From Aureliella helgolandensis (GTDB lineage Bacteria > Planctomycetota > Planctomycetia > Pirellulales > Pirellulaceae), in contig NZ_CP036298.1 of assembly GCF_007752135.1 (NCBI RefSeq), positions 5,580,859-5,644,858 of the forward strand: DNA of 64,000 nucleotides. Reading direction: 5' to 3'. Made by a program: the position numbers and the translations under genes. The notes under the pieces were generated by a model, which was not told the DNA's origin, searched no databases, and was given only the letters and a program-made list of their open reading frames with translations. This document shows, in pieces, positions 2,966 to 20,579 of this stretch; position 1 is the stretch's first letter; every line of letters starts with the position of its first letter.

Positions 2966-3058
2966 GCCGAAACGCGGTATCAATCCGCGTCGCCGGTCGG
3001 TGGTTCGATCGGCCTGACGATGGCAGCCAACCACGAAATAGAATTGGGAACTACGACG

Positions 3059-5302: not shown

Positions 5303-5520
5303 TGCGAGGATGCCCTATGCATCGGTACTCCACAGGCGATGTAGGCATTATACTCTACAGTACTTGCCGCCGAACTGGTCAGTGCCGTTACACTGTATTG
5401 TTGATTTCAGTGGCAGTAGCCCCCCACACTCCCCGTCGGTTGATGTTGATATCGTAAGACTGGCTCGTTGGAAAGCGGCAAGCACCCCATTCACCGAACT
5501 CGCGAGCTACGACATCATTC

Positions 5521-7527
5521 TTACCGCCCCCAGAACCTACGCTGATTGGCCCTCCAGCGTTCAACGTCGATGTACGGCTTGCGCTGTGGATCGGGAGCCG
5601 GTTTGGGCTTGGGTGGTACCTGGCGGCGTTCTTCCTCAACCAGCCGGACTCCGCAGTAGTGCCCAGCGGCACAGGCATTGTACAGTGCATCGAACCAGTG
5701 GTTTTGCTTTCGCTTGCGGTCCCACTTGGCCACCATGCCCTTGCCTGAGATGAACTCCTCGGTCTTGACTTCAGCCGTCAGATGCTTGGCGAACGACAGG
5801 TGTTCCGTTGCATTGGCTTGGAAGAGTGTAATGGCTCCCACTCGGCTCGTGGGAGTACTGAGACGTTGGTGTACCCAGGTCTTCCAGTGGTCCGCATCGA
5901 CCTCCGCTAGGTAGACATTGGCATTGGGCAGCCAGTTGATATGAAATCCCTCACCCAGGTGCTGAACGACAGAGCCAGTTTGCGTCTCACGATTCTGCCA
6001 CTGCTGATGTTGCTGCGAGGCGCCACGCCCCACCGAGGGAATGAAGCGATTGCCTGACTCTCGATTGAATGCATACACCACATCGGTCATGTAACCAGCG
6101 TCGATGAAGCATAACTGGGGTATTAGTGTTTCACCTCCCACGACGCCAATGGGCCAGCCTGCGAGCACCATGGCTCGGAACTGTCGTAGGGCTACCATCG
6201 TTGCCTGCTCAACGCCCAGGTCGTCCGACGCCACTTCAATGCGTCCGTAGTCGACAACGTGTCCATAGGGGCCTGCAGACCAAGCTACCACAACCCAATG
6301 ATTGAGGTACTTGCCCAGATCCATCGCGATGGTGAGTGTGTCCGCGTTCATGGGCACCACGCCACGAGGAACTTCAGCTACGCGGCATGCCAGCTCATGA
6401 GTTTCAATCTCGGCATCAGTCCACTTGGTGGGGACGACTGGCAAGCACCATACGAACTGGCGGCGCTCACGTTCGGCGTTGTCTTCGTCTGCGGCTCGGC
6501 TTGCTACCCATTCCTCGGACGCGATCTCTCCGGTGGTCGCGAACAGGTTGTTGACGGCCGACCAGCGGAAGCCAAGAGTTTCGGTTTCGGGATATTCACC
6601 TTCGATCTCGCCAGAGGAGTTGATGGTCTGACCGTGGTGCACGAGCCGACAGTTCCGATTGGCCTCGACTCGCTGAGGTTCACTCCAGGGTTCTTGGCAC
6701 GCCGAGCAACTGAACGCTGCAGTCTTGCGAGCTTCAAGCTGAGACTCCGCTTCCTGCCAGCCAATCAACTGCTCCCGTTCAGGGCTGACCCAAGCGCCGC
6801 AGAGAGGGCAGGGGAGTACGATTTGACTCTGCGTACCACGCGTGTATTCCTGCCATGTGCGGCCCTGTTCGGTACTGACCGTACATTCCATGTAGACGCG
6901 AGCTCTGTGGCCAAAAGCTCGAGTCCGAGCGATCAGCTGCGAGATCTTGTCAGCCTCGCGACTCTTACGTCCCGACTCGTCCATCCCGTCTGTTTCGGTA
7001 ATAACCACCACGCGCGATGTGAAGGCGGCCCGGCTCTTATCACCGCCACCTCCGGACATAAACCGCAGCGTGGCACCATTGCGGAACTGAAGAGACTGGA
7101 CCAAGCCACCTCGACTCCCGGAGCCCTGCTTGGGAAGTTGGTCTCGATACCTGGAACGCTCGATAATGGGCAGCAGGTCTTCTCGCCACTTGTCGGCAGC
7201 CATGTCCATGTCGGGCACTCCGCATATCACCGTCTCGCCATACTCGAACAGGTGGTAGAGCAGGGGGATGACGAAGCAACTGATGCTTTTACCCGACTGG
7301 GTAGGCCCCGTGGCGACGAACCTGGACCAGCGGCCACTATCAACCTGGTCGAACCACAATCCCGTGTAGGGCTGGCGATGGACCCGAAAGCGGGTGCCAG
7401 CATAGGGACCCGAGGGAAGAACAATCTCCTCCTCTGCGAACTGGCGCATCGAGCGCATGCGGCGAGGTTTTGCCTGCTCGAGGAACCACTTCATATCCTG
7501 CAGGGCTGCTTGCTCAGTCAACAACAT
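5521..7527 (-). CDS. Phage terminase large subunit (GpA family)
   Basis: 668 residues from the ATG at 7527, which overlaps the preceding gene by 14 bases; the open frame extends further but with shadow-like sequence. The N-terminal ATPase has Walker A GPTQSGKS and Walker B VVVITETDG. Two CxxC pairs (CPLCG, CSACQ) give the zinc-ribbon insert usual in GpA proteins. The C-terminal nuclease shows acidic strands TIAMDLGKYLNHWVVVAW and CFIDAGYMTDVVYAF. The length is normal for the family. The enzyme cuts concatemeric DNA and drives it into a prohead. No portal, capsid or tail genes follow, so the element either borrows a helper's capsid or is a reduced prophage. Confidence 0.93.
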   Translation of the reverse strand: MLLTEQAALQDMKWFLEQAKPRRMRSMRQFAEEEIVLPSGPYAGTRFRVHRQPYTGLWFDQVDSGRWSRFVATGPTQSGKSISCFVIPLLYHLFEYGETVICGVPDMDMAADKWREDLLPIIERSRYRDQLPKQGSGSRGGLVQSLQFRNGATLRFMSGGGGDKSRAAFTSRVVVITETDGMDESGRKSREADKISQLIARTRAFGHRARVYMECTVSTEQGRTWQEYTRGTQSQIVLPCPLCGAWVSPEREQLIGWQEAESQLEARKTAAFSCSACQEPWSEPQRVEANRNCRLVHHGQTINSSGEIEGEYPETETLGFRWSAVNNLFATTGEIASEEWVASRAADEDNAERERRQFVWCLPVVPTKWTDAEIETHELACRVAEVPRGVVPMNADTLTIAMDLGKYLNHWVVVAWSAGPYGHVVDYGRIEVASDDLGVEQATMVALRQFRAMVLAGWPIGVVGGETLIPQLCFIDAGYMTDVVYAFNRESGNRFIPSVGRGASQQHQQWQNRETQTGSVVQHLGEGFHINWLPNANVYLAEVDADHWKTWVHQRLSTPTSRVGAITLFQANATEHLSFAKHLTAEVKTEEFISGKGMVAKWDRKRKQNHWFDALYNACAAGHYCGVRLVEEERRQVPPKPKPAPDPQRKPYIDVERWRANQRRFWGR

Positions 7528-8158
7528 CGACTGGCGCCTCTGCGGAGTGGCGTTGGGTGAAGAAGCGTTCAATCTCCGACTCAGCGTCTTCGATCGCATC
7601 GTAGAGTAGCTCTGCGGCCGTATCGCCGAACTGCTTCTGCAGCGTTTCACCAGCGGCCCTGATGAGAGCGGCCGTCTTGGCCAGTGACAGCCTTACAAGG
7701 TCCCGAGGTAACAATTCCCCTTCCCGTTCTAGACGCACTAGACGGGCCAACAGGGCCCTCTCCTCGCGATACCGTTCCAGGGCTGGGCTAGCAGGTCCGC
7801 TCAGCAGGTCGTCATCATCCCTGGCCAACTTATGCTTGTTGTCGGCCAGGAAGTCGTGCAGGGCCCGGACCACCTTGGGAAGGGACACGTTCGCACCGCC
7901 AAAGGGAATTCCGTAGCGAGATGCCTGCTCGTTGAGGATCTTGGCCTGGCGACCCGACATTGAGCGCCAGTGCTTTTGCGGTATCGTTTCGTAATACTGC
8001 CAACGGAGTCGCTCCTCCTTCTGCTTCTCATGCTGCTTGACAGCCGCCTCTTCGTCGCGCGACAAGTCATCCTTCCTGCCATCCATGATCTTGCGGTAAG
8101 CGCGTGCGACGACCTCAGATTTTTCAATCGTAACATCGCGTTTACCCGAACTTGCCAA
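7514..8158 (-). CDS. Terminase small subunit-like protein
   Basis: 214 residues. It starts with TTG at 8158, supported by GGAAGG about 10 bases upstream. The middle part (residues 55-105: HWRSMSGRQAKILNEQASRY, then VSLPKVVRALHDFLADN) reads like the DNA-packaging Nu1-type helix-turn-helix. The C-terminal half is a long charged helix (RYREERALLARLVRLEREG), probably for oligomerisation or contact with the large subunit. Position directly upstream of, and overlapping, the large terminase gene supports the role. The N-terminal 50 residues are highly charged and unassigned. Confidence 0.72.
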   Translation of the reverse strand: MASSGKRDVTIEKSEVVARAYRKIMDGRKDDLSRDEEAAVKQHEKQKEERLRWQYYETIPQKHWRSMSGRQAKILNEQASRYGIPFGGANVSLPKVVRALHDFLADNKHKLARDDDDLLSGPASPALERYREERALLARLVRLEREGELLPRDLVRLSLAKTAALIRAAGETLQKQFGDTAAELLYDAIEDAESEIERFFTQRHSAEAPVDVVD

Positions 8159-8272
8159 AGTTACTTACCTTCCAAGAATCGTACGTTACGTGTGAAAGTT
8201 CTCGGCTTTCTATACCGCCCAAACCTCCCAAATCCCCAGGAAGTACCTACGCAATACAGGGGGGTTGAGCCC

Positions 8273-9502
8273 TCAGCGGCTTGCCTGAACACTCGACTCC
8301 ATCGGTATGGGTGAGTCGCCCGTGCGCTGGAGTACCGCTGGCTTGCCACTGAACCGTTGATAGCGATCGACGATGACATCGCAGTAGATTGGATCGAGTT
8401 CCATCAGGAAGGCTTGCCTGCCCGTCTGTTCGCAGGCTAAGAGCGTGGTCCCGGAGCCTGCGAATGTATCCAGCACCTTGGAGCCACGCGCACTACTGTT
8501 CACGATGAGGTAGGCAAACAGTGCAACGGGCTTCATCGTGGGGTGTTGCTCGCTACGACTGGGTCGGTCGAAGTTTAGGACGGTCGTTTGCTTGCGGTCG
8601 GAGTACCAGCCATGCGATGCTCCGTCCTTCCAACCGTAGAGGCACGGCTCATGTTGCCAGTGGTAATCCTGACGCCCCATCACCATGATGTTCTTATTCC
8701 ATATCAGACACTGACGCACCCGTTGACCACACTCGTGCACTGCGCCTCGGAAGGTGTACCCTTCGGAGTCAGCGTGCCAGATGTAGAACGCGGCGCCGGG
8801 CTTGGACACGTTGAAAGCGTTGGTGAAGGCCCCCAGTAGAAAGGCCTTGAATTCTTGGCCCGCCATCGAGTCGTTGGCTACTTTGAGGGCGTCCTTGGTC
8901 CTTCCCGTGTAGTCCACGTTGTAGGGAGGGTCGGTGAGCCACAGGTCGGCTTGCTGTCCATCCATGAGCCTAGCAAGGTCCTCAGGCTTGGTTGAGTCGC
9001 CACACAGTAGACGATGCTTCCCAAGTACCCACAGGTCACCAGGACGCGTCACAGGCTCCTCTGGTGGCAGTGGGACGTCGTCGGGGTCGCATTCACCGTC
9101 CTGCACCTCGCCTCCCATAATCCGGTCCAGCTCCTCGGCGTCGAAGCCCAGCAGGCCCAGGTCGTACCCATCGTCGCGCAGGCCGCACAGCTCCAGTGGC
9201 AGCAGGTCCATGTTCCAGTCGGCTATCGTCGCGGTCTGATTGTCTGCGATGCGGTAGGCTCGTACTTGCTCCTGGGTAAGGTCCGTTGCAATGTGGACCG
9301 GTACTTTGTCCAGTCCCAGCTTGTGTGCCGCTTGGAGTCGTGTGTGCCCACAGACGACAACACCCTCGGCATCAACGACGATTGGCTGCCGGAATCCGTA
9401 CTCACGCAGCGAGGTGGCAACCGCCTCAACGGCGTGCTTGTTGATACGCGGGTTGCCAGGATACGGCTTGAGTTTCGACAGTGTCCACATCTCGATCTTC
9501 AT
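8273..9502 (-). CDS. ParB-domain DNA methyltransferase (beta class)
   Basis: 409 residues from the ATG at 9502, chosen because GAGG stands about 7 bases upstream and MKIEMWTLSKLKPYPGNPR is the usual ParB/sulfiredoxin-like opening. Residues 1-120: ParB N-terminal domain (PIVVDAEGVVVCGHTRLQAA). Residues about 150-390: an N6-adenine/N4-cytosine methyltransferase with the catalytic motif TDPPYNVDY before the SAM motif DTFAGSGTTLLA, the beta-class order. It probably modifies the element's own DNA against host restriction. No partner nuclease is nearby, so this is an orphan modification enzyme, a type common in phages and mobile elements. The target sequence cannot be read from the protein. Confidence 0.93.
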   Translation of the reverse strand: MKIEMWTLSKLKPYPGNPRINKHAVEAVATSLREYGFRQPIVVDAEGVVVCGHTRLQAAHKLGLDKVPVHIATDLTQEQVRAYRIADNQTATIADWNMDLLPLELCGLRDDGYDLGLLGFDAEELDRIMGGEVQDGECDPDDVPLPPEEPVTRPGDLWVLGKHRLLCGDSTKPEDLARLMDGQQADLWLTDPPYNVDYTGRTKDALKVANDSMAGQEFKAFLLGAFTNAFNVSKPGAAFYIWHADSEGYTFRGAVHECGQRVRQCLIWNKNIMVMGRQDYHWQHEPCLYGWKDGASHGWYSDRKQTTVLNFDRPSRSEQHPTMKPVALFAYLIVNSSARGSKVLDTFAGSGTTLLACEQTGRQAFLMELDPIYCDVIVDRYQRFSGKPAVLQRTGDSPIPMESSVQASR

Positions 9503-9746
9503 GCTCGCCTCGGAGATTGGTTTGAACGTGGGGCACAAGGAGATAGACGGCCAAGCAGAACCAGGCTGCACGCCAAAAGAATCGTTCGCACGCGCGGGCC
9601 GTGGGGACGATGCATTCGCTCCAGATTGAGCCCTGGGAGCCGGATGACACGTTCGAAGACATTGGGAAGATCCTTTGCGAGAGAGCACACTGGTCGTGAA
9701 ATATCCCGATGGGGAAATGCTGGGGAACCAATCGATGGAAGATTAC

Positions 9747-9977
9747 TCAAGAGAGCTCATCCTGCGAGGCGCTAGGAGCCACTGCCTTGCCTTGCAGGAA
9801 GGCTTCCAGGTCATCCCGCCTGATGCGCCACGTGCCGCTAGCAAGCTTGCTGGCGGGCAACAGGCCACGTCTGAGCCATCGCCGAACGGTGGGTACCGAC
9901 GCATCGGCATAGTCGGCCACGCTGACGAGGTTCAACCATCCGCCATCGTTTCGCTCGAGCTTGCGGCGCGTATCCAT
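9747..9977 (-). CDS. Excisionase-like HTH protein
   Basis: 76 residues with a MerR/excisionase-type winged helix: LVSVADYADASVPTVRRWLR (recognition helix) then SGTWRIRRDDLEAFL. AAGGA 7 bases upstream supports the ATG. Proteins of this size and fold act as recombination directionality factors or small repressors. On an element with a large serine recombinase it is a candidate directionality factor, but serine-recombinase directionality factors are not usually of this fold, so a regulator role is equally likely. Confidence 0.8.
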   Translation of the reverse strand: MDTRRKLERNDGGWLNLVSVADYADASVPTVRRWLRRGLLPASKLASGTWRIRRDDLEAFLQGKAVAPSASQDELS

Positions 9978-10006
9978 AGCAATCCTTCGTTGGCTGTCGA
10001 TTGTTT

Positions 10007-10270
10007 CTACTGGGCAGTTCTATCTAGCGTATCAGGTGCACAAGATTGATCAATCCTGGTGTTACCCGCCGGGGTAAAAGTGGATGGAAAAACTGGCCGA
10101 CCGAGGTCATCGACTGGAAAGACTTCCTGGCCGTGTTGATGGCACGAGTCGCATTTGAGATAGCGCCTGCGGAGATTGCCTTGGGTCTTCGTGCTGTACC
10201 GGCGTAGTGTGCCGTGGTTGCAGGCAGGGCAGGGGTCGAGGTGTCGCATGGGGTAAAACTCCGTGTTCAT
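10007..10270 (-). CDS. Small zinc-ribbon protein (Ogr/Delta-like)
   Basis: 87 residues from an internal ATG at 10270, preferred over the longer frame because upstream sequence is unlike protein. It has CPACNHGTLRRYSTKTQGN followed by KCDSCHQHG: two CxxC pairs with a Thr/Arg-rich spacer, the arrangement in Ogr/Delta-type phage late-gene activators. It could be a transcription activator for the packaging genes downstream. It lies between the HTH gene and the replication block on the same strand. The zinc ribbon is clear; the activator role is inferred. Confidence 0.6.
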   Translation of the reverse strand: MNTEFYPMRHLDPCPACNHGTLRRYSTKTQGNLRRRYLKCDSCHQHGQEVFPVDDLGRPVFPSTFTPAGNTRIDQSCAPDTLDRTAQ

Positions 10271-10398
10271 TGCTCGCGGGTCACAATCGTTTCGTTCCTT
10301 CGCGGTCAGGCGTAGCGTAGCGAAGACGCCGAGGTACCGCGTAATGTTTCTGTATGTATGCGCTCTGACGCCCCCACTAGGTGACACCAGAGCGCATA

Positions 10399-10770
10399 CT
10401 AGCGGACGTCAGAGCGCACACTAGAAGTATGTTTAGAGGGCGTGCTTACGCCCCCTCTAGCTGACTTTTTCCGGCTCAATTGCCCAGTGATCTTGAACAC
10501 TCTAGGGATTGTTCCCTGTCGTGGCTCAACGAGTTGAATAGCTTTCCAAGCCTCTAGATCGGCGAACAACTTTCTCGCAGTTCTCTGATGGACGCCAAGT
10601 GATTTGGCAAGGACCGTTGTCGATACGCGAAACACTCTATCGACGTCTGCATGCCGGAAGAACACCATCATTGCTAATCCGTGACGGGGCGGTACCCTTT
10701 GCAGCATCTTGTCAACGAGTGCATTTAGGTGTTGAAACCGCCTAGCAGACTTGGACTTGGAAGTGCTCAC
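10399..10770 (-). CDS. Winged-helix DNA-binding protein
   Basis: 123 residues. Residues 45-90 form a winged helix (VSTTVLAKSLGVHQRTARKL, then LEAWKAIQLVEPRQG as the wing). Ends are basic: SKSKSARR at the start, SRKKSARGG near the end. The start overlaps the stop of the upstream primase-helicase by 4 bases (ATGA), so translation is coupled. Position suggests a replication initiator, helicase loader or regulator of the replication genes. No specific family recognised. Confidence 0.72.
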   Translation of the reverse strand: MSTSKSKSARRFQHLNALVDKMLQRVPPRHGLAMMVFFRHADVDRVFRVSTTVLAKSLGVHQRTARKLFADLEAWKAIQLVEPRQGTIPRVFKITGQLSRKKSARGGVSTPSKHTSSVRSDVR

Positions 10771-12836
10771 AAGAAAAAGTCCTCCACTGAATCATCGCTA
10801 TCGACTTCTGTTAGGTTGCCAAACTCCGCGAGCGGTTGCGGCGTTCGCGCTAAGAACTCCATACGCGGTCGGTCAAACTCAAGCTTGAAGTCCTTTTGCG
10901 CTCCGTGGCGATTCTTGACGCACGCAAGCGTTACTCGCCGGCGCCATTCCTCGCCAAGGGCTCCCTCATCCCGCAGGACGTATGCTGAATCGGCGTTGTA
11001 CTCAACCTCCCCCGACTCCTTGAAGGAGCTTAGGCTTAGCTCTGTGGCGTTGTGAGAACCTTTGGAATCCCTCTTTGTTGCCGACAGTGCTAGAACAGCA
11101 TGTCCGCGCAGACAAAGTCGCCGTAGCGTCGCTGCAACTTCACCGACACCTATCCGCAAATCCTTCCCACTGGGTGCGAACTTTTGCAGGTAGTCGACAA
11201 TGATTAGGCTCGGCTTCTCGCCTGCCAGCCTTGCAAGATTGAACAGATTGCATTCCTCGACTACCTGTACTCGCAACAGTGTCGCGCGTATATCGCTGGC
11301 CACCTCGTCGATACGTTCACGCTCATACTGGGTAAGTCGGCCGAAACGCAGATCGTCGCTTTTGATTCGTGTGCGTCTCGTGAACTCCCGCCTTAGCAGT
11401 GCACTGAAATGCATCTCAGCATTCGCGATAATCACCTGTAAGTCCGCGTTGAGCTCGATAGCGTCGAAAGCTACCTGGGAGGCGATAACCGTCTTACCGG
11501 TCCCTGGGGGACCTCCCAGGACAGTAAGCAGTCCAAACCCAACCTCAATTCCATCGAGCGCGTCCCGCTGCCGAATCAACTGTGGGAGCGTCCCACTGTG
11601 AATGTCATCCATGTAGCCATCAAGCAACTTAATCGCAGACGTCGTAACTGGTGGCAGTTGCAGCTGTAAGCCTCCTGTGGTCGTCTCCGTGGCACTTGTC
11701 GAATCTGTAGTTGTTGCCACTTCGGTTTGACCTGCTACAGTCTCGGGAGCGCCAGCGGTCGTCTCGTAGGTTTTTGCTGCTTCTGTTTCACCTGTTGGCG
11801 CTGTGAGGTTATCAGTGTCGACAGTTAGGATTTCCCTTTTTCTCGCAAACTTGTCCTCGCGAGGCTTTCCTCTGTACAGACCATTCTGAACGCATTGCTG
11901 CACCTCCATTTCATCCAGTGGCACCGGCAGGAGTGCGTTCCAAACGAGGACATATCCAAGAATGTCTGACTCGCTCAGACGCTCGCCGTCATCCCCAACG
12001 ATTGAGGCCAAATTGCCAGCCAATCGAAACGCACAGCTGTTCCGTCCGCCTTCGTGAGGTTTGTCGGCCGCTTGGATGTAGCCCTGTGCGCGAGCATCAA
12101 GAAAACCTGAAGGACATCCAACATTGAAGCGTGACAACTGTTGCCGTTGAATTGTCGGTGTTAAGTGCTTCTCTAGTCCTGGGAGCTCGAATTCTTGCAA
12201 TTTGTACCGACGGTCGGAATTGATAAACAGCGGTGCAACAGTGTTCCCCGACTTGCGAATCGAGCCGACTGGCCGCAATAGTCGGTCCAAGTTAGCAGTG
12301 GAATCAACTTTCGCACCCTTAGCGCAGATCCTCAGTTCTTCCAACCATCGGCCCGAGATTGCCGCGCATCGCATGCGGTTCTCATCGTCGAAGATGTAGT
12401 GCGGTTCATCGAGCAGCCAGTAAACGTGGTAGCCGCCATCGTCGCCATCGGACTGGATAATAGCGCTAGGTGACAGTGGCATCGTGTCGAGTGCGGCAAG
12501 CATGTCCTGCTGAGTAGCGTAGCCAGGTTTGCCTGCATCAATGTCGAAATGCAATGAGACAACCGCTTCGACCTCCTTCTCCGAGCCGATACCGTGCAGA
12601 TTGCGTTGTTTGACGCGATCGTAGTCAATTGGATTTACCTTGATAAACAAATCAGTGGGCTCAAGCTCTACATGTCGCGCCGCTAAATCCAGTTGATCGA
12701 TATTAAACACCGCTGACACTTGATTGCGACAGGGCTTTACGAATACGACCTGACCACGACTGCAGTTCCCGTACAATGCATGGAGGTATTCACTCGACAG
12801 TACGTTTGCATTCTTAGTCACGCTCGTGCTCCTCAA
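10767..12836 (-). CDS. Primase-helicase fusion
   Basis: 689 residues. N-terminal primase (residues 1-210) of the RepB/AEP type: catalytic HFDIDAGKPG (96-105), GGYHVYWLL (134-142) and the NLDRLLRPVGSIRKSGN region (183-198). Residues 270-320 resemble a PriCT-like helical part. A Thr/Glu-rich low-complexity linker (348-389) follows. The C-terminal domain is a RecA-fold DnaB-like helicase with Walker A GGPPGTGKT (441-449) and Walker B LIIVDYLQ (544-551). It would prime and unwind the element's own DNA, so autonomous replication is likely. The start overlaps the end of the Topo VI A-like gene by 23 bases. All replication genes form one tight minus-strand operon. Confidence 0.85.
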   Translation of the reverse strand: MRSTSVTKNANVLSSEYLHALYGNCSRGQVVFVKPCRNQVSAVFNIDQLDLAARHVELEPTDLFIKVNPIDYDRVKQRNLHGIGSEKEVEAVVSLHFDIDAGKPGYATQQDMLAALDTMPLSPSAIIQSDGDDGGYHVYWLLDEPHYIFDDENRMRCAAISGRWLEELRICAKGAKVDSTANLDRLLRPVGSIRKSGNTVAPLFINSDRRYKLQEFELPGLEKHLTPTIQRQQLSRFNVGCPSGFLDARAQGYIQAADKPHEGGRNSCAFRLAGNLASIVGDDGERLSESDILGYVLVWNALLPVPLDEMEVQQCVQNGLYRGKPREDKFARKREILTVDTDNLTAPTGETEAAKTYETTAGAPETVAGQTEVATTTDSTSATETTTGGLQLQLPPVTTSAIKLLDGYMDDIHSGTLPQLIRQRDALDGIEVGFGLLTVLGGPPGTGKTVIASQVAFDAIELNADLQVIIANAEMHFSALLRREFTRRTRIKSDDLRFGRLTQYERERIDEVASDIRATLLRVQVVEECNLFNLARLAGEKPSLIIVDYLQKFAPSGKDLRIGVGEVAATLRRLCLRGHAVLALSATKRDSKGSHNATELSLSSFKESGEVEYNADSAYVLRDEGALGEEWRRRVTLACVKNRHGAQKDFKLEFDRPRMEFLARTPQPLAEFGNLTEVDSDDSVEDFFL

Positions 12837-14031
12837 CGGCTAGCTGATAGAGAGCCATATCCCAAGTTTCCCCTTTTGTCGCGATCCTATTGGCGACGCG
12901 ACTTTTCAAGTTTTCAGGAATTTGTGCTGCGATAGCTTCCTCGCGAGCGGTAACAAGACTTTGTATAAGTTCTTGATTTGCCCTTCTCACGGCAATTGCT
13001 CGACGGTATGCAGCTTCCAAGACTTGAATGTCAGGTACCAGCCGCATCGGAAGATGCCCTTTCAGCTTGCCCTCTAGCCACCCAATAAACTCGGGTGCGG
13101 TGAACGCATTGAGTTCAACACGTCTACCTGAACGGAGATAAGAGACTTCCTCCGACGTGACGTTCTCCAGGCAGATGTTACGGTACTTGACCTTTTCCGA
13201 CGCCAATGAGTATTCTTCGACGTCGGCCAGACGCAGGCCGAAGTCAGTCACGTTTATTTGGTGCTGGAAATGGTATGCAACCCGATCGTTGTCTAGGGCA
13301 TACTCCGACTCTGATGTCAGGCAGCTGGCAATCTGAAATCCAGCTTCGTCGAAATCATGCACTACAAAAAGCGGTACGCCACCGTCAACACGGCAAACAT
13401 GATCAACGAGTTGTCTCGCGGCAGCGACGGACTGGCCTTTGCACGAAAGGATCGCCAAGTCGAATCGTTCCGCGATTTTTGCCTCGTTCAACAGCGGCTC
13501 GAATCCTTCCTTTTCGATATAAAGCACTGCGGCGTATCGCTCGTTTTCCGCAATCGACGGCCACTGGGTGGGAAGCGAGATGTGTTGCAGGTCGCTCACC
13601 GCAGTCCGGTCCCGCAAGTACCTGTCAATCGAGAGCGTTCCAACCGGAATGCGCACTTCGTTGTTAGCGTTGGGAACGGTGAATGTTCCTCGAGGATCCG
13701 CGGTGATCTTCCAGTCGACCGTGTGAGTGTTGAGATACTTGCGTAGGATGGTCTGCGAGAAGTAGGCTGCATCGATTTCACGACCAGTCAACTCACGGAA
13801 TTTCTCGCGGCTTGCGTAGTACATCTGTCGCTGGGATACCGGAAATCTTCCGTTGCCAGACGCATGCTGGTAAGCGTCTGGGAGTATTTGATGTGCAATG
13901 TCAGAAAAGTTCACTCGATTTGAGTAGTAGTAGCCTCGCGGACGGCGGGATCCGCGCTCCTCAGCCTTACGCTGCTTCGCCCAGCCCTTGGTTACGGACT
14001 GGATCGCACCAATGATTGCGTCTGACTTCAT
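12814..14031 (-). CDS. Topo VI A / Spo11-like DNA-cleaving subunit
   Basis: 405 residues. The N-terminal 5Y-CAP-type domain includes VSQRQMYYASR (residues 66-75); Tyr71 or Tyr72 fits the catalytic tyrosine in the R-x-x-Y-Y signature of Topo VI A and Spo11. The Toprim domain has the glutamate in YIEKEG (171-176), SCKGQSVAAARQL, and the metal-binding DxD in HDFDEAG (225-231). The length is close to archaeal Topo VI A. Three bases separate it from the upstream ATPase gene, which has a Topo VI B-like Bergerat fold, so the two probably form an A2B2 type IIB topoisomerase or a break-forming complex. Such enzymes are rare in bacteria and known mainly from plasmids and mobile elements. Confidence 0.85.
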   Translation of the reverse strand: MKSDAIIGAIQSVTKGWAKQRKAEERGSRRPRGYYYSNRVNFSDIAHQILPDAYQHASGNGRFPVSQRQMYYASREKFRELTGREIDAAYFSQTILRKYLNTHTVDWKITADPRGTFTVPNANNEVRIPVGTLSIDRYLRDRTAVSDLQHISLPTQWPSIAENERYAAVLYIEKEGFEPLLNEAKIAERFDLAILSCKGQSVAAARQLVDHVCRVDGGVPLFVVHDFDEAGFQIASCLTSESEYALDNDRVAYHFQHQINVTDFGLRLADVEEYSLASEKVKYRNICLENVTSEEVSYLRSGRRVELNAFTAPEFIGWLEGKLKGHLPMRLVPDIQVLEAAYRRAIAVRRANQELIQSLVTAREEAIAAQIPENLKSRVANRIATKGETWDMALYQLAVEEHERD

Positions 14032-14034
14032 GTC

Positions 14035-15345
14035 TCACTCCTCAACGATTACGGAAGACTTGCCTCGGTCCGAGTACTGGACCTTTGGACAACTGATATG
14101 CAGTACAACAACGGTGGGCTCATCACGACCGGCACGCTGTTCCTCAAGAACGGAATCGAGCGATTTCCCATACGCGCCCAATTGCCGGAAGGGATTGATA
14201 ATGGCCGGGCTCCAGTTCACGCCAGTGATAATGCGGCGTGGCCTCGTCTCCTCCGGACAGTACGCGAAACAGGTCTCTATAACCCATGGAATCCCGTCGT
14301 CCGTACCTACGACTTTCTTGTAGGCAAAGCTCTCAGGATCCCCTCCAGCCAGCGCACAGCGAGACTGCAGGTGGTGTTCGCCAACGATTCCCAAAGCTGC
14401 TGGCCTAACGGGCTTTGCCTCGCTTTTCATCGCCGTAAGCAGTCTGCCCACTAAGCCTCTATCGATGCAGTCATCGGCGACTAATTCCGATAGGAGAGTT
14501 CGCGACAGACCGACTGCTTCCAGCACCTTCCTCTGCTTCGCTGAGCCGGTCAGACCACGGAATTCAGCAATGAACTCACGGACCAACCGGTCCCGATGGC
14601 AGATGTTGGCAGCAATCAATCGCTCGAGCTCGTCGACACCGTACCAGTGTGGATCGGTAGGATTCGACGGCAACCATTTATTCCAACTAGGGGCGGACGC
14701 TTCGAGGTCCACTCGCTCACCCTCCCAGTCAACGGAGAGCGACAGATGAGGATTGAGCCAACAGTAGTCTTCGGCAATTTGTAAAAATCGGGCCTTCGAA
14801 TGCTCTAGGATTAACCTAGCTGAATCGGGCCACTGCACGCTTACAACAGTTCCTTCAGTGATGGGTGAGTCGCCCAGCTGATGGTCAATCTTGGGCTCCT
14901 GGCGCACTCGATCCACGGTAACCCTGATCTCATGCTGCACCCCTTGAGACTGGATGACAACGGAACCTTCACCACAAAGCGCGAAGGGCATGGCCACCAC
15001 TGTTTTGAGCGCGTTCCCTTGCGATCCCCGACACGGCGACACATAAGCCTCGCGGCTGGAGACGCGGACATTGAAATCCAATACGGAGTCAACGACACTT
15101 GGCGGGAGCCCTGGGCCGTTGTCTGAGATCGTCAAGCCTGATTCATCAACACAGACTTGGATGCGCGGCGGCACTCCAGCCTCCTCACAGGCGTCCAGTG
15201 CGTTGTCGACCAGCTCCTTGAGGCACACCAGTGGCCACTCGGCAACTTGGTGTCCGGTCTGAGCTACAAGCTCCTTCCTGGATAGAAAATCGAGTGCTCG
15301 ATTCGTTTCAAAATGGAGACGGACAAGTTTGGTGGTGTCGGCCAT
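14035..15345 (-). CDS. Topo VI B-like GHKL ATPase subunit
   Basis: 436 residues from ATG 15345; AAGGAA lies about 10 bases upstream, and LHFETNRALDFLS is the usual Topo VI B opening. The Bergerat ATPase motifs are in order: N-box ELVDNALDA (44-52), G1 box DNGPG (75-79), and G2 box RGSQGNALKT (106-115), close to the GQQG-type loop of Topo VI B. A transducer-like part follows. It lacks obvious sequence for the long C-terminal domain of archaeal Topo VI B and is shorter. Together with the A-like subunit just downstream it should form an ATP-gated type IIB enzyme resolving supercoils or catenanes during replication of the element. Confidence 0.83.
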   Translation of the reverse strand: MADTTKLVRLHFETNRALDFLSRKELVAQTGHQVAEWPLVCLKELVDNALDACEEAGVPPRIQVCVDESGLTISDNGPGLPPSVVDSVLDFNVRVSSREAYVSPCRGSQGNALKTVVAMPFALCGEGSVVIQSQGVQHEIRVTVDRVRQEPKIDHQLGDSPITEGTVVSVQWPDSARLILEHSKARFLQIAEDYCWLNPHLSLSVDWEGERVDLEASAPSWNKWLPSNPTDPHWYGVDELERLIAANICHRDRLVREFIAEFRGLTGSAKQRKVLEAVGLSRTLLSELVADDCIDRGLVGRLLTAMKSEAKPVRPAALGIVGEHHLQSRCALAGGDPESFAYKKVVGTDDGIPWVIETCFAYCPEETRPRRIITGVNWSPAIINPFRQLGAYGKSLDSVLEEQRAGRDEPTVVVLHISCPKVQYSDRGKSSVIVEE

Positions 15346-15410
15346 CAATGGCGGTTCCTTGGATAAGATTGCTGTGTGCGTTCTAAATTCATGATCTTGG
15401 TGTCCGAGCA

Positions 15411-15776
15411 CTAGCTACTCGCTGGCTCGGCAGTGATGCGCTGTACAGAAAAAGAGGATGGTCCAAACTCTCTATTGAGAAATCCAACGTAGAGTCGATT
15501 GAGATCCTGCCCGACTTCGGAACCACCGTCGATTTCGCAATTCCGACTGGTGGCGTCGAATCGATAGCGACCGTTCATCCTGATGGCACTTGGGCCGTGT
15601 AGGGCCTCCGCTGCGATAACGGCGACTAACAGCGTCGCCTCGGCTTCTCGTGCGTCCACGGACTTGTCGAAAGCGTAGCGATAAATTTCACGGATCACGG
15701 ACAGTACTCCTGGGCAAATATCGGACGGGGATGAAAATGACATACGAAGAACGAAGGAAACCGTCGCGCTACTCAT
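15411..15776 (-). CDS. Small hypothetical protein of the element
   Basis: 121 residues from the ATG at 15776, which overlaps the end of the sigma-factor gene by 8 bases; another ATG at 15743 is possible. The middle (KSVDAREAEATLLVAVIAAE) is helical. The end (RYRFDATSRNCEID, LYVGFLNREFGPSSFSV) looks like strands of a small alpha/beta protein. No known family. It is set between the sigma gene and the ATPase subunit gene in the same operon, so a role with either is possible. Confidence 0.55.
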   Translation of the reverse strand: MSSATVSFVLRMSFSSPSDICPGVLSVIREIYRYAFDKSVDAREAEATLLVAVIAAEALHGPSAIRMNGRYRFDATSRNCEIDGGSEVGQDLNRLYVGFLNREFGPSSFSVQRITAEPASS

Positions 15777-16356
15777 GCAAGTAAATCTGAAGTCCAGATA
15801 GCCTGTGACGCAAAGCCACCATGCGTCGGTAGATCGTTCCACGGCAGACGCCGAAATGTCGCGCTAATTCTGTCGCGGAATGGCCTTCAAGTTTTGCCTT
15901 GAGAAGTGACCGCTGCCCGCTAGTGAGATGTTCAGATGCTTCTTGGAGATCGATGCCCAGCTGCGTGTCGGCAAATGTTTGAGTACGACCGCCGATACGG
16001 CGTTTCAGAGACTGCTCGTCGATGCATTGCCAGAGTTCGGTAGCTGCATCCACTCCTGCGTCAACCGAAGAGTGGAGGGAGGCCAGATTGAGGGCTCCCT
16101 GGTGTTTCTTAGCGCGTCGCTGACGTGAAGCGTCCAGGAGTGAGCTGTCCGTGATCTGGCTAACGTAGCCGTAGAAGGAACCTCGCGTTTCATCAAAGTT
16201 CGACAATTTGGACAGTATCTGCAGCATGGTGTGGCTGCATGTATCTTCCAAATCGTGGGCAGTCAGGGTTCGGCCAAAGAAGCGTTTAGCTTTCCGAAGG
16301 ACTAGCTTCCTGCATTCCTCAACTTGGTGGTCAGAAAGCGACGGCGAAATCCGCAT
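15769..16356 (-). CDS. Sigma-70-family (ECF-like) sigma factor
   Basis: 195 residues. Region 2: DLEDTCSHTMLQILSKLSNF through RGSFYGYVSQITDSSLLDA, with a basic RQRRAKK after it. Region 4 HTH: GQRSLLKAKLEGHSATELA then HFGVCRGTIYRRM. Regions 1 and 3 are absent, as in ECF sigmas. CGGAG 9-10 bases before the ATG supports the start. It heads the minus-strand operon of the mobile element, and a perfect 25-bp inverted repeat lies 14 bases upstream. It may direct host RNA polymerase to the element's promoters. No anti-sigma gene is next to it. Confidence 0.87.
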   Translation of the reverse strand: MRISPSLSDHQVEECRKLVLRKAKRFFGRTLTAHDLEDTCSHTMLQILSKLSNFDETRGSFYGYVSQITDSSLLDASRQRRAKKHQGALNLASLHSSVDAGVDAATELWQCIDEQSLKRRIGGRTQTFADTQLGIDLQEASEHLTSGQRSLLKAKLEGHSATELARHFGVCRGTIYRRMVALRHRLSGLQIYLHE

Positions 16357-16369
16357 TGAACTGCTCCGA

Positions 16370-16394
16370 GAATAAGAACGGGTGTTTCTTATTC
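16370..16394. promoter_or_regulatory. Perfect inverted repeat upstream of sigma gene
   Basis: GAATAAGAA (16370-16378) and TTCTTATTC (16386-16394) form perfect 9-bp arms around a 7-base centre, starting 14 bases upstream of the sigma-factor start. Length and place suit an operator for a dimeric repressor or autoregulation. A transcript hairpin in the leader is the other option. Confidence 0.5.
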
Positions 16395-16397
16395 CCG

Positions 16398-16409
16398 GCG
16401 CACGTGCGC
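16398..16409. promoter_or_regulatory. 12-bp perfect palindrome GCGCACGTGCGC
   Basis: Palindrome just beyond the 25-bp inverted repeat, followed by a direct repeat TTAGATGA spaced by two bases (16410-16427). The cluster in the 156-bp gap between two element genes could be a control region or part of a replication origin. Function not established. Confidence 0.35.
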
Positions 16410-16512
16410 TTAGATGACGTTAGATGAGCGCAAACCCCGTATGGACAATGGTTTACATCGCGCAATATTTTCTTTCTTGAGCTATGTCTTCCCCCCCCTT
16501 GCGCGCAAGGTT

Positions 16513-17805
16513 TCAGTCGGATTCCGAACCTTTGCGTGACGGATTGCGCCCCCTCTGTCTGGCTCCTAAATCAATTTCCGAAGGATCCATCGGCACTGGA
16601 ACCGCAGCTTTTGCTTTTTCCTTAGCGAGCATATTCTGAACAGTGGGTGGTAGCGGATTACCCTTTTCGTACCACTCACGTGCGATTTTGATCCATCGCG
16701 AAATCGTCCCCAAATCCACTGTCACTTTGAGTTTCTTCTTGATTTCTGCGTTTGACAATTGCGACAGTGTACGGAGCAGGTATGCAGCTATTTGTTCCTT
16801 CTTGGGGGGCTTCAGTTTTTCAGGGGCCTCCTCCATCAGGGACGCATAGGTTCGGCCCGAAGTAAGATCATCCAGCGTCTGTCGCAATTCAACCACAAGT
16901 TCCTCGATCGCACTAAGGCTAGTCAGTAGGTGTGTCTCTGCCAGCCGCTTTTCCTCGTACGTTGGAGGGGGCTCATTTGCACGCAGTGGCGTGTTCAGAT
17001 GAAGCGCTACCGCCGCGCCAACAACTAGCTTACCCATTTCGGGGATTACATTCGATTTGACGTTCTCTATTCCGTCCGGCCATCGCAGCTGCAAAATGTC
17101 CACTGACTCAGGGGGCACGATTTTCTGAGACCCCCACCATTCGCGCGCGTCTACCCGATAGCGATCCCTCAGCCTCGCTGCCAGATTGATCGTCTGGAGG
17201 TGTTGACGCAGGTCTGGATTAACAGCGGGCCACTGCCGGATCTCGTGCACGGCGTTGATGGCAGCATCCAGAACCTTGGGGAGAAGGTCTGCAACCCTCA
17301 TGACATGGGCATCTTTGTGAATCGTCCCCAAAACAGAGTCGACTTCCCAGTACGAAAGCGGTCGGGGAGTCTGGGGTTCGGCGTCGTCGGCGGGAGCCGA
17401 TTCGTCGAGAAGCAAGTGCTGTAGTCGTTCCAGTACTGGAAACTGCCCTTCGATCAAAAACTCGACTGCTTCGCGATCATCTATCCGATTTCCTTTGATG
17501 TCGTCATGGCAATCAATCATTGAAGTTCGCCCTGCCGAGCGATCCAGTGGTGGGGCAGTAAACTGCAGGCGCACAAACAATCCGTTTTGGAGCTCGTAGA
17601 GCGAATCATAGTAAGTTCCATGGTGCCGATACGGCATCGGCGAGGTGGCTGTCCAGCAGCGTCTTGCGTCTCTTAGCGGCTGAAACCAACTCCCATCTTC
17701 CAGCTTGACTGCTGAACCCTCGAAACTGAATTGTTGGCTCAACGGTCGCAAACCTTCATCGCTCACTTTCATCCCTCCAGAAAAACTTATGCGCGACACC
17801 CTCAT
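16513..17805 (-). CDS. 430-aa element protein with C-terminal HTH, unknown
   Basis: 430 residues; an alternative ATG at 17772 follows GGAGG directly but with too short a spacing. The N-terminal half (to about 200) is mixed alpha/beta with no motif I can name. The middle is helical. Residues about 350-400 (SNAEIKKKLKVTVDLGTISRWI) look like a helix-turn-helix, and the C-terminus is basic (GARQRGRNPSRKG). It may be a DNA-binding initiator or partition-like protein. It is divergent from the recombinase module, with about 100 bases between them holding promoters for both sides. Confidence 0.68.
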   Translation of the reverse strand: MRVSRISFSGGMKVSDEGLRPLSQQFSFEGSAVKLEDGSWFQPLRDARRCWTATSPMPYRHHGTYYDSLYELQNGLFVRLQFTAPPLDRSAGRTSMIDCHDDIKGNRIDDREAVEFLIEGQFPVLERLQHLLLDESAPADDAEPQTPRPLSYWEVDSVLGTIHKDAHVMRVADLLPKVLDAAINAVHEIRQWPAVNPDLRQHLQTINLAARLRDRYRVDAREWWGSQKIVPPESVDILQLRWPDGIENVKSNVIPEMGKLVVGAAVALHLNTPLRANEPPPTYEEKRLAETHLLTSLSAIEELVVELRQTLDDLTSGRTYASLMEEAPEKLKPPKKEQIAAYLLRTLSQLSNAEIKKKLKVTVDLGTISRWIKIAREWYEKGNPLPPTVQNMLAKEKAKAAVPVPMDPSEIDLGARQRGRNPSRKGSESD

Positions 17806-17904
17806 CGTGCTCTGCGTATGTTAACCGGTAGGTCAAAGGGGCAAGTAGCGTCCCGACAAATCTTCGCGGCTGATCAAACGCAAAAATACAGGAATCTAAT
17901 CGCA

Positions 17905-18147
17905 ATGACGCATAAATCGTCTATGCCAGAGTTTGATCTGGATCATACGAGAACGCAGATCGCCAGCATCCTAGCCACGGGCATTATCCGCCACAGTCGG
18001 GCCAAACTCGCAGAGAGTTCCGAAATCTCGCCCCACAGCGCCGAGCCAGCGCTTGAATTTCCTGGACAGACTGCGCTCTCTGTCACCACGCGGGTTAACT
18101 CTCAGCGAAATACCCTAGGAACAGGAGAGGCACATGTTGAACATTGA
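17905..18147 (+). CDS. Small protein heading the recombinase module
   Basis: 80 residues, missed by simple calling because it sits inside a longer frame. The ATG at 17905 has AGGA about 11 bases before it. It has a recognisable motif DLDHTRTQIASILATGIIRH, then a low-complexity tail. Small genes of this type often stand before DUF2924 and recombinase genes in proteobacteria and planctomycetes. Its end overlaps the DUF2924 start by 14 bases, so translation is probably coupled. Function unknown. Confidence 0.5.
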   Translation: MTHKSSMPEFDLDHTRTQIASILATGIIRHSRAKLAESSEISPHSAEPALEFPGQTALSVTTRVNSQRNTLGTGEAHVEH

Positions 18148-18628
18148 GAAAGAGGTCGCCGCCATGGAGCGGATGACCGTCAACCAACTTCGCATTAAGT
18201 ATGCGGACGTATTTGGTGAGGGGACCAACGGTCGGAACAAAGTCTGGTTGCTCAAGCGGATTGCTTGGCGAATGCAGGCCAACGAGGAAGGTGATCTTTC
18301 CGAACGGGCTCGTAAACGGGCCTTTGAAATTGCCAACGATGCAGACCTACGGATGCTGCCACCAAGGCAATCTAAGCTATCGGTCGACTCCTCCGAGCGG
18401 ACCGTCACGAAGAAAGTCGGGATTGCTCACTCCAACGAGCTTCTGCCCGGTACCAAACTTCAGCGGATCTACAAGGGGGAAACGTTCTCGGTCACGGTGC
18501 TGGAAAGTGGATTTGAGTTCCAAGGTGAACGCTTCAAATCACTGACTGCGGTTGCCAAGGCTGTCACCGAGAAGCACTGGAACGGCTTTCACTTCTTCGG
18601 CCTGCGTCAACCAAGGAGTGCCAAATGA
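18134..18628 (+). CDS. DUF2924 protein
   Basis: 164 residues with the DUF2924 features: VNQLRIKYADVFGE (a LEM/SAP-like short helical start), NKVWLLKRIAWRMQA, then a C-terminal beta part (GTKLQRIYKGETFSVTVL and ALT-like SLTAVAKAVTEKHWNGFHFF). The SD AGGAGAGG is strong. The gene overlaps the large serine recombinase by 4 bases (ATGA). DUF2924 genes almost always precede such recombinases, so a role in integration or excision is likely, perhaps DNA binding at att sites. The biochemistry is unknown. Confidence 0.88.
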   Translation: MLNIEKEVAAMERMTVNQLRIKYADVFGEGTNGRNKVWLLKRIAWRMQANEEGDLSERARKRAFEIANDADLRMLPPRQSKLSVDSSERTVTKKVGIAHSNELLPGTKLQRIYKGETFSVTVLESGFEFQGERFKSLTAVAKAVTEKHWNGFHFFGLRQPRSAK

Positions 18629-20184
18629 GCCGCCGAACAAAAGAGAAGCCGCCTGCTAGGGACGTCGTGCGGTGTGCCATCTACACACGCAAGTCGACGG
18701 AGGAGGGACTTGAGCAGGAGTTCAATTCCCTCGATGCCCAGCGCGAGGCGGGAGAAGCGTACATCAAGAGCCAGCAGCATGAGGGCTGGGTGTGCGTGCC
18801 GGATGCGTATGATGACGGTGGATTCACCGGCGCCAATATGGAGCGTCCAGCTCTGCGACGACTGCTCTGCGACATCGAAGAAGGGAAGGTAGACTGCGTT
18901 GTGGTCTACAAGGTCGATCGACTGTCTCGCAACTTGATGGACTTCGGACGCATCATCGAAATCCTCGACCGGCACAACGTGGCGTTCGTATCGGTAACTC
19001 AATCATTTAACACTTCGACATCCATGGGGCGACTGATCCTCAACGTGCTGTTGTCGTTCGCCCAGTTCGAACGGGAGATGATTAGCGAGCGCACGCGGGA
19101 CAAGATTGCAGCCGCTCGACGCAAAGGCAAATGGTCGGGTGGCATGCCTGTGCTGGGCTACGATGTGGCGAACACGAAACTGGTGGTAGACGAATGTGAA
19201 GCAGGACGGGTGCGAGAGATCTTTCGGCTGTACCTCGATCAACAATCGCTGTTGGACGTTGCCAAGGAGATCAACGCGAAAGGCTGGCGTACCAAACGCT
19301 GGGTCACCAAGAAGTCCGAGGTGCGCGGTGGAAAGCTCTTCGACAAGGGTTCCCTGCATCGACTGCTGACCAACGTGGTCTATGTCGGCAAGCTCACTTA
19401 TAAGACTGAAGTCCATGAAGGGGAGCACGAAGCCATCGTGGACCTTGAGTCGTTCAACCAGGCTCAGGCGCTGCTTGAGCGGAATGGGAGAAGTGGTGGG
19501 CGAGAAGTCCGGAACAAGCACAATGCTCTACTACGAGGCTTGATGCACTGTGGGGCCTGCGACTGCGGCATGAGCCATTCGTACTCCAAGAAGGGTAGCA
19601 AGCTCTACAGATACTACGTCTGCCACAGGGCGCAAAAGCGGGGCTGGGAGGAGTGCCCTGCGCCGTCCCTACCGGCGGGTGAGATTGAGCGGTTCGTAGT
19701 CGACCAGATTAAGCGCATTGGCCGAGATCCTGCCTTGATTCGCACCACGTTGGCCCAGGTGCAACGACAAACGGACGAAGAACTCCGACGCCTCGCGGCC
19801 GAGAAAACGGCACTGGCCCGCGATGTGCGGCAAGACTACGTCGAGGTTGGTAGATTGGCCGGTACCGCATTGGCTGGCGATCCAAGACTGTTGGAGGTTC
19901 AAACTCGAATCCGGGAGGCTGAACGCAGGATGACCGTCATTGGGGAAGAGCTGGCATCGCTGAAATCGCAGGCCATTGATGAAAAGGACGTTGCAGCCTC
20001 CCTGGGTGAATTCGATAGCATCTGGGAAGCACTCGCACCACGGGAACAGGCCCGCGTACTGGAGCTGCTCATTGAACGAGTTACCTACGATGCCGATACC
20101 AGCACCCTGTCGATCACTTACCGACCAACCGGTATCAAGTCACTGGCCAAGCAGGGTATTGATCGAATTGAGGAAGCAGCATGA
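18625..20184 (+). CDS. Large serine recombinase (element integrase)
   Basis: 519 residues. Catalytic N-terminal resolvase domain: YTRKSTEEG with catalytic Ser24, VVVYKVDRLSRNLMDFGRII, FERE and the SERTRDKIAAARRKG E-helix. The recombinase domain follows (GYDVANTKLVVDE to about 300), then a zinc ribbon MHCGACDCGM with a second Cys set CHRAQKRGWEEC. A C-terminal coiled coil (about 380-470) starts with RQTDEELRRLAAEKTALA. All key residues are present, so it should be active. It catalyses site-specific integration and excision at attP/attB without a host factor. The att sites could not be located by eye. Confidence 0.95.
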   Translation: MSRRTKEKPPARDVVRCAIYTRKSTEEGLEQEFNSLDAQREAGEAYIKSQQHEGWVCVPDAYDDGGFTGANMERPALRRLLCDIEEGKVDCVVVYKVDRLSRNLMDFGRIIEILDRHNVAFVSVTQSFNTSTSMGRLILNVLLSFAQFEREMISERTRDKIAAARRKGKWSGGMPVLGYDVANTKLVVDECEAGRVREIFRLYLDQQSLLDVAKEINAKGWRTKRWVTKKSEVRGGKLFDKGSLHRLLTNVVYVGKLTYKTEVHEGEHEAIVDLESFNQAQALLERNGRSGGREVRNKHNALLRGLMHCGACDCGMSHSYSKKGSKLYRYYVCHRAQKRGWEECPAPSLPAGEIERFVVDQIKRIGRDPALIRTTLAQVQRQTDEELRRLAAEKTALARDVRQDYVEVGRLAGTALAGDPRLLEVQTRIREAERRMTVIGEELASLKSQAIDEKDVAASLGEFDSIWEALAPREQARVLELLIERVTYDADTSTLSITYRPTGIKSLAKQGIDRIEEAA

Positions 20185-20579
20185 TTCAAACTCAACACAA
20201 GATTCATTTCAAATCGGGCAGACGTTCGCGCAAGGAGCTGTCGGGCGGAGTCGCTACACCTCAGCCAACGGGTCGGCTGCCACGCATTACCAAATTGATG
20301 GCTCTGGCGATTCGCCTTGACCATCTCATCAAGACTGGGCAGGTCACCGACCAAGCAGAGCTGGCACGTGTGGGACATGTGTCACGGGCGCGGCTGACTC
20401 AAATTATGAATCTGCTCTACCTGGCGCCGGACATCCAAGAGGAGCTACTGCACTTGCCTGTCACAGTGAATGGACAAGATGCAATCATTGAGCGGGACCT
20501 GAGGGCGATTGCGGGGATGGTGAGTTGGAAAGAGCAGCGGGAGGCTCGGAAGCATACCGAAGCAAGGCACATTCGTTAA
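20181..20579 (+). CDS. HTH protein after the recombinase
   Basis: 132 residues, overlapping the recombinase stop by 4 bases. It has a basic N-terminus (KSGRRSRKELSGG), then a helix-turn-helix resembling the ParB/KorB type: TDQAELARVGHVSRARLTQIM followed by LAPDIQEELL. This gene commonly closes the DUF2924-recombinase module. It could be a directionality factor or a repressor of the module. DNA binding is well supported; the exact role is inferred. Confidence 0.8.
   Translation: MIQTQHKIHFKSGRRSRKELSGGVATPQPTGRLPRITKLMALAIRLDHLIKTGQVTDQAELARVGHVSRARLTQIMNLLYLAPDIQEELLHLPVTVNGQDAIIERDLRAIAGMVSWKEQREARKHTEARHIR

Follow-up and report, generated by a model that had tools for sequence, protein, structure and literature searches.

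Among the type IIB DNA topoisomerases, topoisomerase VI (Topo VI, A2B2) carries a transducer stalk and a C-terminal hairpin on its B subunit (PMC13040014); the stalk runs from the transducer to the A subunit and its stability couples the state of the ATPase to DNA cleavage (PMC13040014, PMC5922973), and a conserved lysine of the transducer contacts the gamma-phosphate of ATP (PMC13040014). Topo VIII is described as a single-chain variant (PMC5922973), and it is called usually a homodimer in one review (PMC7614492) and homodimeric for "most of them" in another (PMC8185306), a wording which implies that exceptions are already known. The reviews place Topo VIII in plasmids and integrated elements, and in viruses they mention Mini-A, which is a homologue of Topo VI-A from phages and from archaeal viruses (PMC7614492, PMC8185306). 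In this work we analysed a stretch of 64,000 nucleotides of Aureliella helgolandensis (contig NZ_CP036298.1, positions 5,580,859 to 5,644,858; hereafter the window), in which two adjacent genes for an A and a B subunit lie inside a phage-like element. The pair probably represents a two-polypeptide topoisomerase of the Topo VIII family, which serves the replication of this element and has a split architecture of its own. What is new about it is the site at which the chain is split.

The gene pair and the site of the split

The features of the pair, all on the minus strand, are as follows (row counts refer to the alignment of relatives described below).

14035..15345 (-): B subunit, 436 amino acids (aa), with GHKL ATPase, H2TH-like region and a transducer without the stalk
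12814..14031 (-): A subunit, 405 aa, with a stalk-like helix, a winged-helix region with Tyr72 and a Toprim domain
14029..14037 (-): gene junction, with the stop codon TGA of B (14035-14037), a single codon GAC and the start codon ATG of A (14029-14031)
14059..14070 (-): DRGK, B residues 426-429, its lysine aligned with K427 of Topo VI-B of S. shibatae
13957..14025 (-): N-terminal helix of A, residues 3-25 in the AlphaFold2 (AF2) model, proposed to correspond to the transducer stalk of Topo VI-B
15202..15216 (-): N box, B E44-L-V-D-N48 (E44 in 57 of 59 filled rows; K in L052, D in L095)
13816..13830 (-): catalytic tyrosine motif, A R68-Q-M-Y-Y72 (Y72 in 62 of 62 rows, R68 in 61, the remaining row having X)
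13513..13515 (-): Toprim glutamate, A E173 (62 of 62 rows)
13348..13356 (-): Toprim DxD, A D226-F-D228 (each aspartate in 62 of 62 rows)

A second possible start of B is the GTG at 15411. The sequence-only reading of this locus had taken the two genes for neighbouring Spo11/Topo VI A-like and GHKL subunits of a likely planctomycete, and in this it was right: the open reading frames (ORFs) are in place, the matches in Pfam, NCBIfam and PDB agree with it, and the motifs it named are present both in A (R68-x-x-Y71-Y72, E173, D226-x-D228) and in B, where the N box (E44...N48) is accompanied by DNGPG (residues 75-79) and the RGxxGNALK loop.

The A subunit matches the Pfam family TOP6A-Spo11_Toprim over its cut-off (E 4.3e-8) and, with a part of the protein only, the NCBIfam Topo VI-A model (E 8.2e-12); a phmmer search of A against the PDB sequences retrieved no Topo VI chain and no relative. 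The AF2 model of A (mean predicted local distance difference test, pLDDT, of 91.7; alignment of 55 rows) has nine PDB matches at E<=0.001, all nine of them Topo VI-A or Spo11 (best 9o0g_A, E 8.1e-10; Spo11 core complex 8uru_A, E 4.3e-5), so that the lack of a Topo VI A fold, by which the earlier reading proposed to be refuted, was looked for and not found. The superposition is loose (template modelling score, TM, of 0.37-0.45 by query), as can be expected of a flexible two-domain protein at 12-15% identity. As to the B subunit, it matches the NCBIfam Topo VI-B model over residues 40-432 (E 3.5e-22, which is below the equivalog cut-off of that model), and its best match among the PDB sequences is the Topo VI-B chain 2zbk_B (E 1.4e-10). 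The AF2 model of a natural B-A fusion, L068 (pLDDT 89.2), for which the 16 best PDB matches are Topo VI-B without exception, argues for the same fold in B; the H2TH-like region is predicted to be helical from its alignment with Topo VI-B and from the model of L068. By RxxYY, the Toprim glutamate and DxD, and the GHKL ATPase, the pair is classed as a type IIB topoisomerase, which shares with Topo VI the two genes, the folds and the kind of catalytic residues.

Relatives were collected by a scan of one genome per species, which gave 65 loci, and from plasmid records, which added others, including Paenibacillus polymyxa pPPM1a, plasmid 5 of Halalkalicoccus jeotgali and a Synechococcus plasmid. 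Eight of the resulting 69 loci (L044-L112) were set aside, either with no B found (L073, L094, L096, L112) or as split by the start of the record or broken (L045, L089, L098, L099); the remaining 61 and the window make up 62 rows. Counts for B refer to 60 rows, the fragments L063 and L086 being left out, except that the count of B tails includes L063. The catalytic residues Y72, E173, D226 and D228 of A are invariant in this set, and the G-K of RGK is kept in all 30 split B rows. Single-protein scans of IMG/VR gave no match; alignment queries of the same database retrieved nine loci, four of which (L134-L137, kept outside the 62 rows) are split in the same way. No match to A or B was obtained among the INPHARED phages at E<=1e-3.

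In all 31 split pairs the B subunit ends 5-16 residues past the lysine of a conserved [RKH]GK motif (7 residues in the window; 10, 6, 12 and 6 in L134-L137), whereas Topo VI-B proteins of the same phylum continue for 82-167 residues past the equivalent SK/EK motif in 28 of 28 cases (a 29th locus fetched is cut by the end of its contig and was not counted). Residues 423-433 of the window B align with residues 421-431 of Topo VI-B of S. shibatae, K429 standing opposite K427, which we take to be the transducer lysine touching the gamma-phosphate of ATP. The helix that opens A (pattern IxxVTKxWxKQRKAEER) is found in the natural fusions directly after DRGK, in one chain: in the model of L068 a single helix (439-475) follows DRGK (429-432). 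A comparison of ten fused B-plus-helix regions with ten Topo VI-B proteins by hhalign (probability 99.8, E 4.1e-29) reaches into the stalk, 27 residues beyond the lysine. Hence the first helix of A appears to be the counterpart of the Topo VI-B stalk, the lever of Topo VI, and in the split members, judging from the positions of the lysine and the helix and from the role of the stalk in Topo VI, the sensor loop would end B and the lever would start A. We also considered whether the first helix of A might correspond to the helix at the N-terminus of Topo VI-A; the alignment of the two A profiles, confined to Toprim, neither supports nor excludes this, and the hhalign result together with the spacing after the lysine favours the B stalk. 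The earlier remark that B is shorter than its archaeal counterparts holds for the C-terminus, and we add the probable reason, namely that the stalk helix has its coding sequence in the first part of the A gene. In the type IIB topoisomerase literature searched (including passages of PMC11302465, PMC8185306, PMC7614492, PMC8084294, PMC5922973 and PMC13040014) no stalk on A is described, though the primary papers on Topo VIII may describe the split site.

The enzyme most likely has the composition A2B2. B would dimerise on ATP and trap one DNA duplex, and would make the dimer of A cleave and rejoin a second duplex by means of Tyr72. Since the chain is broken between the lysine loop of the transducer (DRGK) and the stalk, the lever helix, now on A, should pack back onto B and so complete the transducer of the latter. 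Its most likely task is to relax or decatenate DNA while the element replicates itself, alongside the primase-helicase encoded next to it.

One could also suppose a programmed double-strand-break enzyme (Spo11-like, or a nuclease for defence or against the host) that performs no strand passage, considering that Spo11 and the nucleases of MksBEFG, Wadjet and Gabija are Top6 homologues (PMC13040014), that the model of A matches Spo11 and that A has a weak, sub-threshold match to DUF2399 of Pfam. However, the split members retain both the GHKL site and the lysine of RGK, which speaks for an ATP-gated cycle; a PADLOC search at E<=0.001 matched neither A nor B nor the fused L068; and the neighbouring genes include those of replication and of phages. 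The B-like partners of meiotic Spo11 have a degenerate GHKL site (PMC5922973), which in the window B is intact. We regard such an enzyme as unlikely and prefer the ATP-driven topoisomerase of the Topo VIII family.

Fused and split forms and the placement of the family

The sequence-only reading considered a separate pair unusual, which does not apply to the family as sampled here, since 31 of the 62 rows, the window included, are split and 31 are fused. The clade of P. polymyxa (18 rows) is fused throughout, and the clade of the window (44 rows) comprises 31 split and 13 fused members. At least 10 changes of state are needed on the 62-row tree, nine of them forced by its starred branches; with shuffled labels the average was 21 changes, and none of 500 shufflings gave as few as 10. 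The tree, from which the columns of the stalk were left out, is a quick one, without bootstrap and unrooted, with 16 of 59 inner branches open, and it gives the number of changes but not their direction (fission or fusion). On balance we lean slightly towards a third type IIB architecture, in which fission at a single position, past the lysine that senses ATP and before the lever, would have moved the stalk to the cleaving subunit, with this fission or its reversal occurring many times in phage-like elements; assembly would then complete a split transducer, ATP sensing and force transmission residing in different polypeptides.

The junctions of the split pairs are tight, 25 of 31 lying between -11 and +12 nt and nine being exactly -4 nt. 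In the window B and A share a reading frame and are one codon apart, which would suit a decayed fused Topo VIII, in other words a recent nonsense mutation (the TGA between B and A) and an inactive pair; fused relatives do exist, some relatives are broken, and inactivation is assumed for many Topo VIII (PMC7614492). Yet the frames of A and B differ in 25 of the 31 split pairs, the starred clade to which the window belongs is split in 10 of its 11 rows, and the catalytic residues are intact; decay seems unlikely, and we continue to treat the two genes as a probably functional split pair of the Topo VIII family.

As for the placement in this family, it relies on the scores of hidden Markov models (HMMs), on profile-profile E-values and on a missing motif. 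The HMM of the P. polymyxa Topo VIII clade (built from 12 of its 18 rows; L044 was left out of the models of the remaining family) gives 167.3 bits for A and 92.2 bits for B, against 44.7 and 78.6 bits for the best NCBIfam Topo VI models and 1.6 and 61.2 bits for HMMs built from planctomycete Topo VI, the last being narrow (8 and 10 rows of one phylum); the compared models are of unequal depth, and the contrast, above all that for B, is weaker for it. Profile-profile E-values agree with these scores both for A (3.4e-67 with the Topo VIII clade vs 6.3e-9 with Topo VI) and for B (2.6e-39 vs 3.9e-29). The motif WKxY, a DNA-binding motif of Topo VI-B, occurs in 10 of 10 Topo VI-B rows and in none of the 41 rows of the window's family; it is absent from the window B as well. 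By these comparisons the pair stands closer to the Topo VIII clade of the P. polymyxa plasmid than it does to Topo VI, by a clear margin for A and a modest one for B. The name "Topo VI-like" given to it previously therefore suits the folds of both subunits and fails for the nearest kin.

On this sequence evidence the pair belongs to the Topo VIII family, where we file it as a split variant and not as a standard Topo VIII: it is encoded on a mobile element, as is usual for Topo VIII (serine recombinase, terminase, a deletion derivative, patchy presence), and a stop codon separates B and A in place of the usual single fused chain. It is not a Mini-A either, which is described as a truncated A homologue and occurs as a lone A, whereas the gene of a full B partner adjoins the window A. 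A C-terminal motif is reportedly said by Takahashi et al. (2020) to separate Topo VI, Topo VIII and Mini-A. The plasmid protein WP_014600290 (pPPM1a, in L046), presumably the P. polymyxa Topo VIII that was studied, resembles the pair in being encoded on a mobile element, in the order B-then-A and in sequence; unlike the two chains of the window, cut before the stalk, the members of its clade are fused in 18 of 18 rows, and their B part, by HMM boundaries, has 344-387 aa vs 436 aa of the window B. P. polymyxa is the nearest species with a biochemically studied Topo VIII (PMC7614492).

The same data bear on the supposition that the pair is an ordinary bacterial Topo VI (A2B2), obtained from archaea or from planctomycete chromosomes and merely divergent. 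It has two genes, NCBIfam names it Topo VI, the margin for B is modest, and Topo VI is common in the phylum: contrary to the earlier statement that bacterial type IIB enzymes are known chiefly from mobile elements, the Topo VI-A model matches 26 of 58 other sampled genomes of the phylum (27 of 59 if the weak match of the window itself is counted). Nevertheless, A falls far below its Topo VIII score with either Topo VI model, and B has neither the C-terminal stalk, which in Topo VI-B reaches A, nor WKxY. The host genome, a single contig of 8.44 Mb with two type IIA A-subunit genes, contains no other A and no other match to the Topo VI-A model, and its second match to B is weak (76 residues, E 5.6e-4). 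On these grounds the idea that the pair serves as the Topo VI of the host was rejected, and an ordinary Topo VI of any origin is improbable. Least probable is a stop codon that is read through or bypassed, the fused chain being the working form. The common frame in the window is in its favour; against it, A and B differ in frame in 25 of the 31 split pairs, with gaps that range from -11 to +48 nt, and no slippery heptamer was noticed by eye in the 16 nt preceding the nine -4 junctions.

The mobile element and its surroundings

The genes around the pair were assigned as follows.

5141..20540 (no strand): probable extent of the mobile element, judged by homology to a deletion derivative found elsewhere in the genome
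5521..7650 (-): terminase large subunit of GpA type, downstream of the pair (Pfam GpA_ATPase 3.1e-23, GpA_nuclease 4.9e-17)
8273..9688 (-): ParB-like domain fused to a DNA methyltransferase (PHROG 498, E 1.6e-164)
10767..12836 (-): primase-helicase, PriCT_1 and DnaB_C (Pfam DnaB_C E 5.5e-24, PriCT_1 3.6e-5)
15769..16356 (-): sigma-70/ECF-like factor, upstream of the pair (TIGR02937, E 1e-15)
18134..18628 (+): DUF2924 protein beside the recombinase (Pfam DUF2924, E 2.3e-41)
18625..20184 (+): large serine recombinase (Resolvase 1.6e-41, Recombinase 6.7e-16, Zn ribbon 2.2e-14)

The sequence-only reading placed a two-gene type IIB pair in a mobile element together with replication and packaging genes, and this proved correct: the primase-helicase, which shares 23 nt with the end of the A ORF, and the GpA-type terminase lie on the same strand as the pair. 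A deletion derivative 59 kb to the left in the same genome (G000:C1:5521215-5524772, in L132) is 93% identical to 5141-6344 and 18160-20540 and lacks about 11.8 kb of the middle, the topoisomerase pair included; the match does not continue beyond 5141-20540. As the copy ends at these limits, the element appears to extend over approximately 5141-20540 and to be mobile or duplicated, its left edge being soft since it lies in Rhs-like sequence (Rhs was recognised by eye). No portal, capsid or tail gene was seen in 5141-20540, which suggests a remnant or a satellite-like element. In the search for att repeats the tested flanks had no common word of 12 or more bases (one of 11), and the refined edges shared one 7-base word only. 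The presence of the pair among relatives of the host is patchy (5 of 98 genomes, its own included), with a match within the genus in G013:C131. The IMG/VR relatives also have phage genes nearby: TerL (L134, L137), a head maturation protease (L135) and DnaB-type helicases (L135, L137).

Several further observations were made in this region. A 143-aa ORF just before B (15411-15842, minus strand) has no Pfam or NCBIfam match at E<=1, and a stretch of 84 residues is 42% identical to a sequence upstream of the pair in L039. In the latter, which is a related element from G045, the serine recombinase consists of two fragments that lie on opposite strands, and of these the first is inverted (10002-12030). 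Just past the right edge of the element (20916-27888, minus strand) there are a full-length Avs3a (PADLOC, residues 1-2093) and Avs3b, and the neighbouring element encodes a terminase; Avs3 senses phage terminase. Rhs-like C-terminal remnants were seen by eye at the left edge of both copies of the element (4625-5302, minus strand, without a Pfam match, and G000 5520795-5521421). Farther to the left are a HARE-HTH protein (3020-3601, plus strand), a stretch (2599-3834) that is 94% identical to one 68 kb to the left in the same genome, and an IS110-type transposase (1-996, plus strand).

Weighing and meaning of the split

Several points weigh against a working topoisomerase of this kind. The Topo VIII enzymes known so far have weak activity, and many of them are apparently inactivated (PMC7614492). 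Three of the 69 loci carry a broken A (L089, L098, L099), and in the fused L052 the N box reads KKCIDN instead of KELVDN, the catalytic glutamate of B being lost and the residues of A kept. The DNA-binding motif WKxY is missing, as stated above; the profile comparison of A with Topo VI-A aligns the Toprim part alone; and the match of the stalk comes from its position, a predicted helix and a profile alignment of little residue identity. The data establish the two genes, the fold of A, the kept catalytic residues, the placement in the family, the position of the split, the alternation between fused and split forms and the setting in the element; the A2B2 pairing, the packing of the stalk on B, the activity of the window enzyme and its part in replication are predictions. 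The gene neighbourhood is not conserved either: tblastn with 15 phage, replication and integrase queries gave any match in 29 of 78 loci, integrases being the commonest, and the window's terminase and primase-helicase had no relative in these 78 loci. A conserved neighbourhood, also sought by ORF clustering, which gave few common families beyond the pair, was accordingly given up as a candidate; the absence of relatives of the terminase and the primase-helicase suggests that the pair moves between different phage-like backbones.

With these reservations, the pair would add a complete type IIB topoisomerase, with both A and B, to phage-like elements. In this family nature has cut the chain at the joint between sensor and lever, apparently several times, with the catalytic residues kept. 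The split pairs and the natural fusions, which differ mainly in the cut, thus offer a test of whether strand passage needs a covalent link between sensor and lever.

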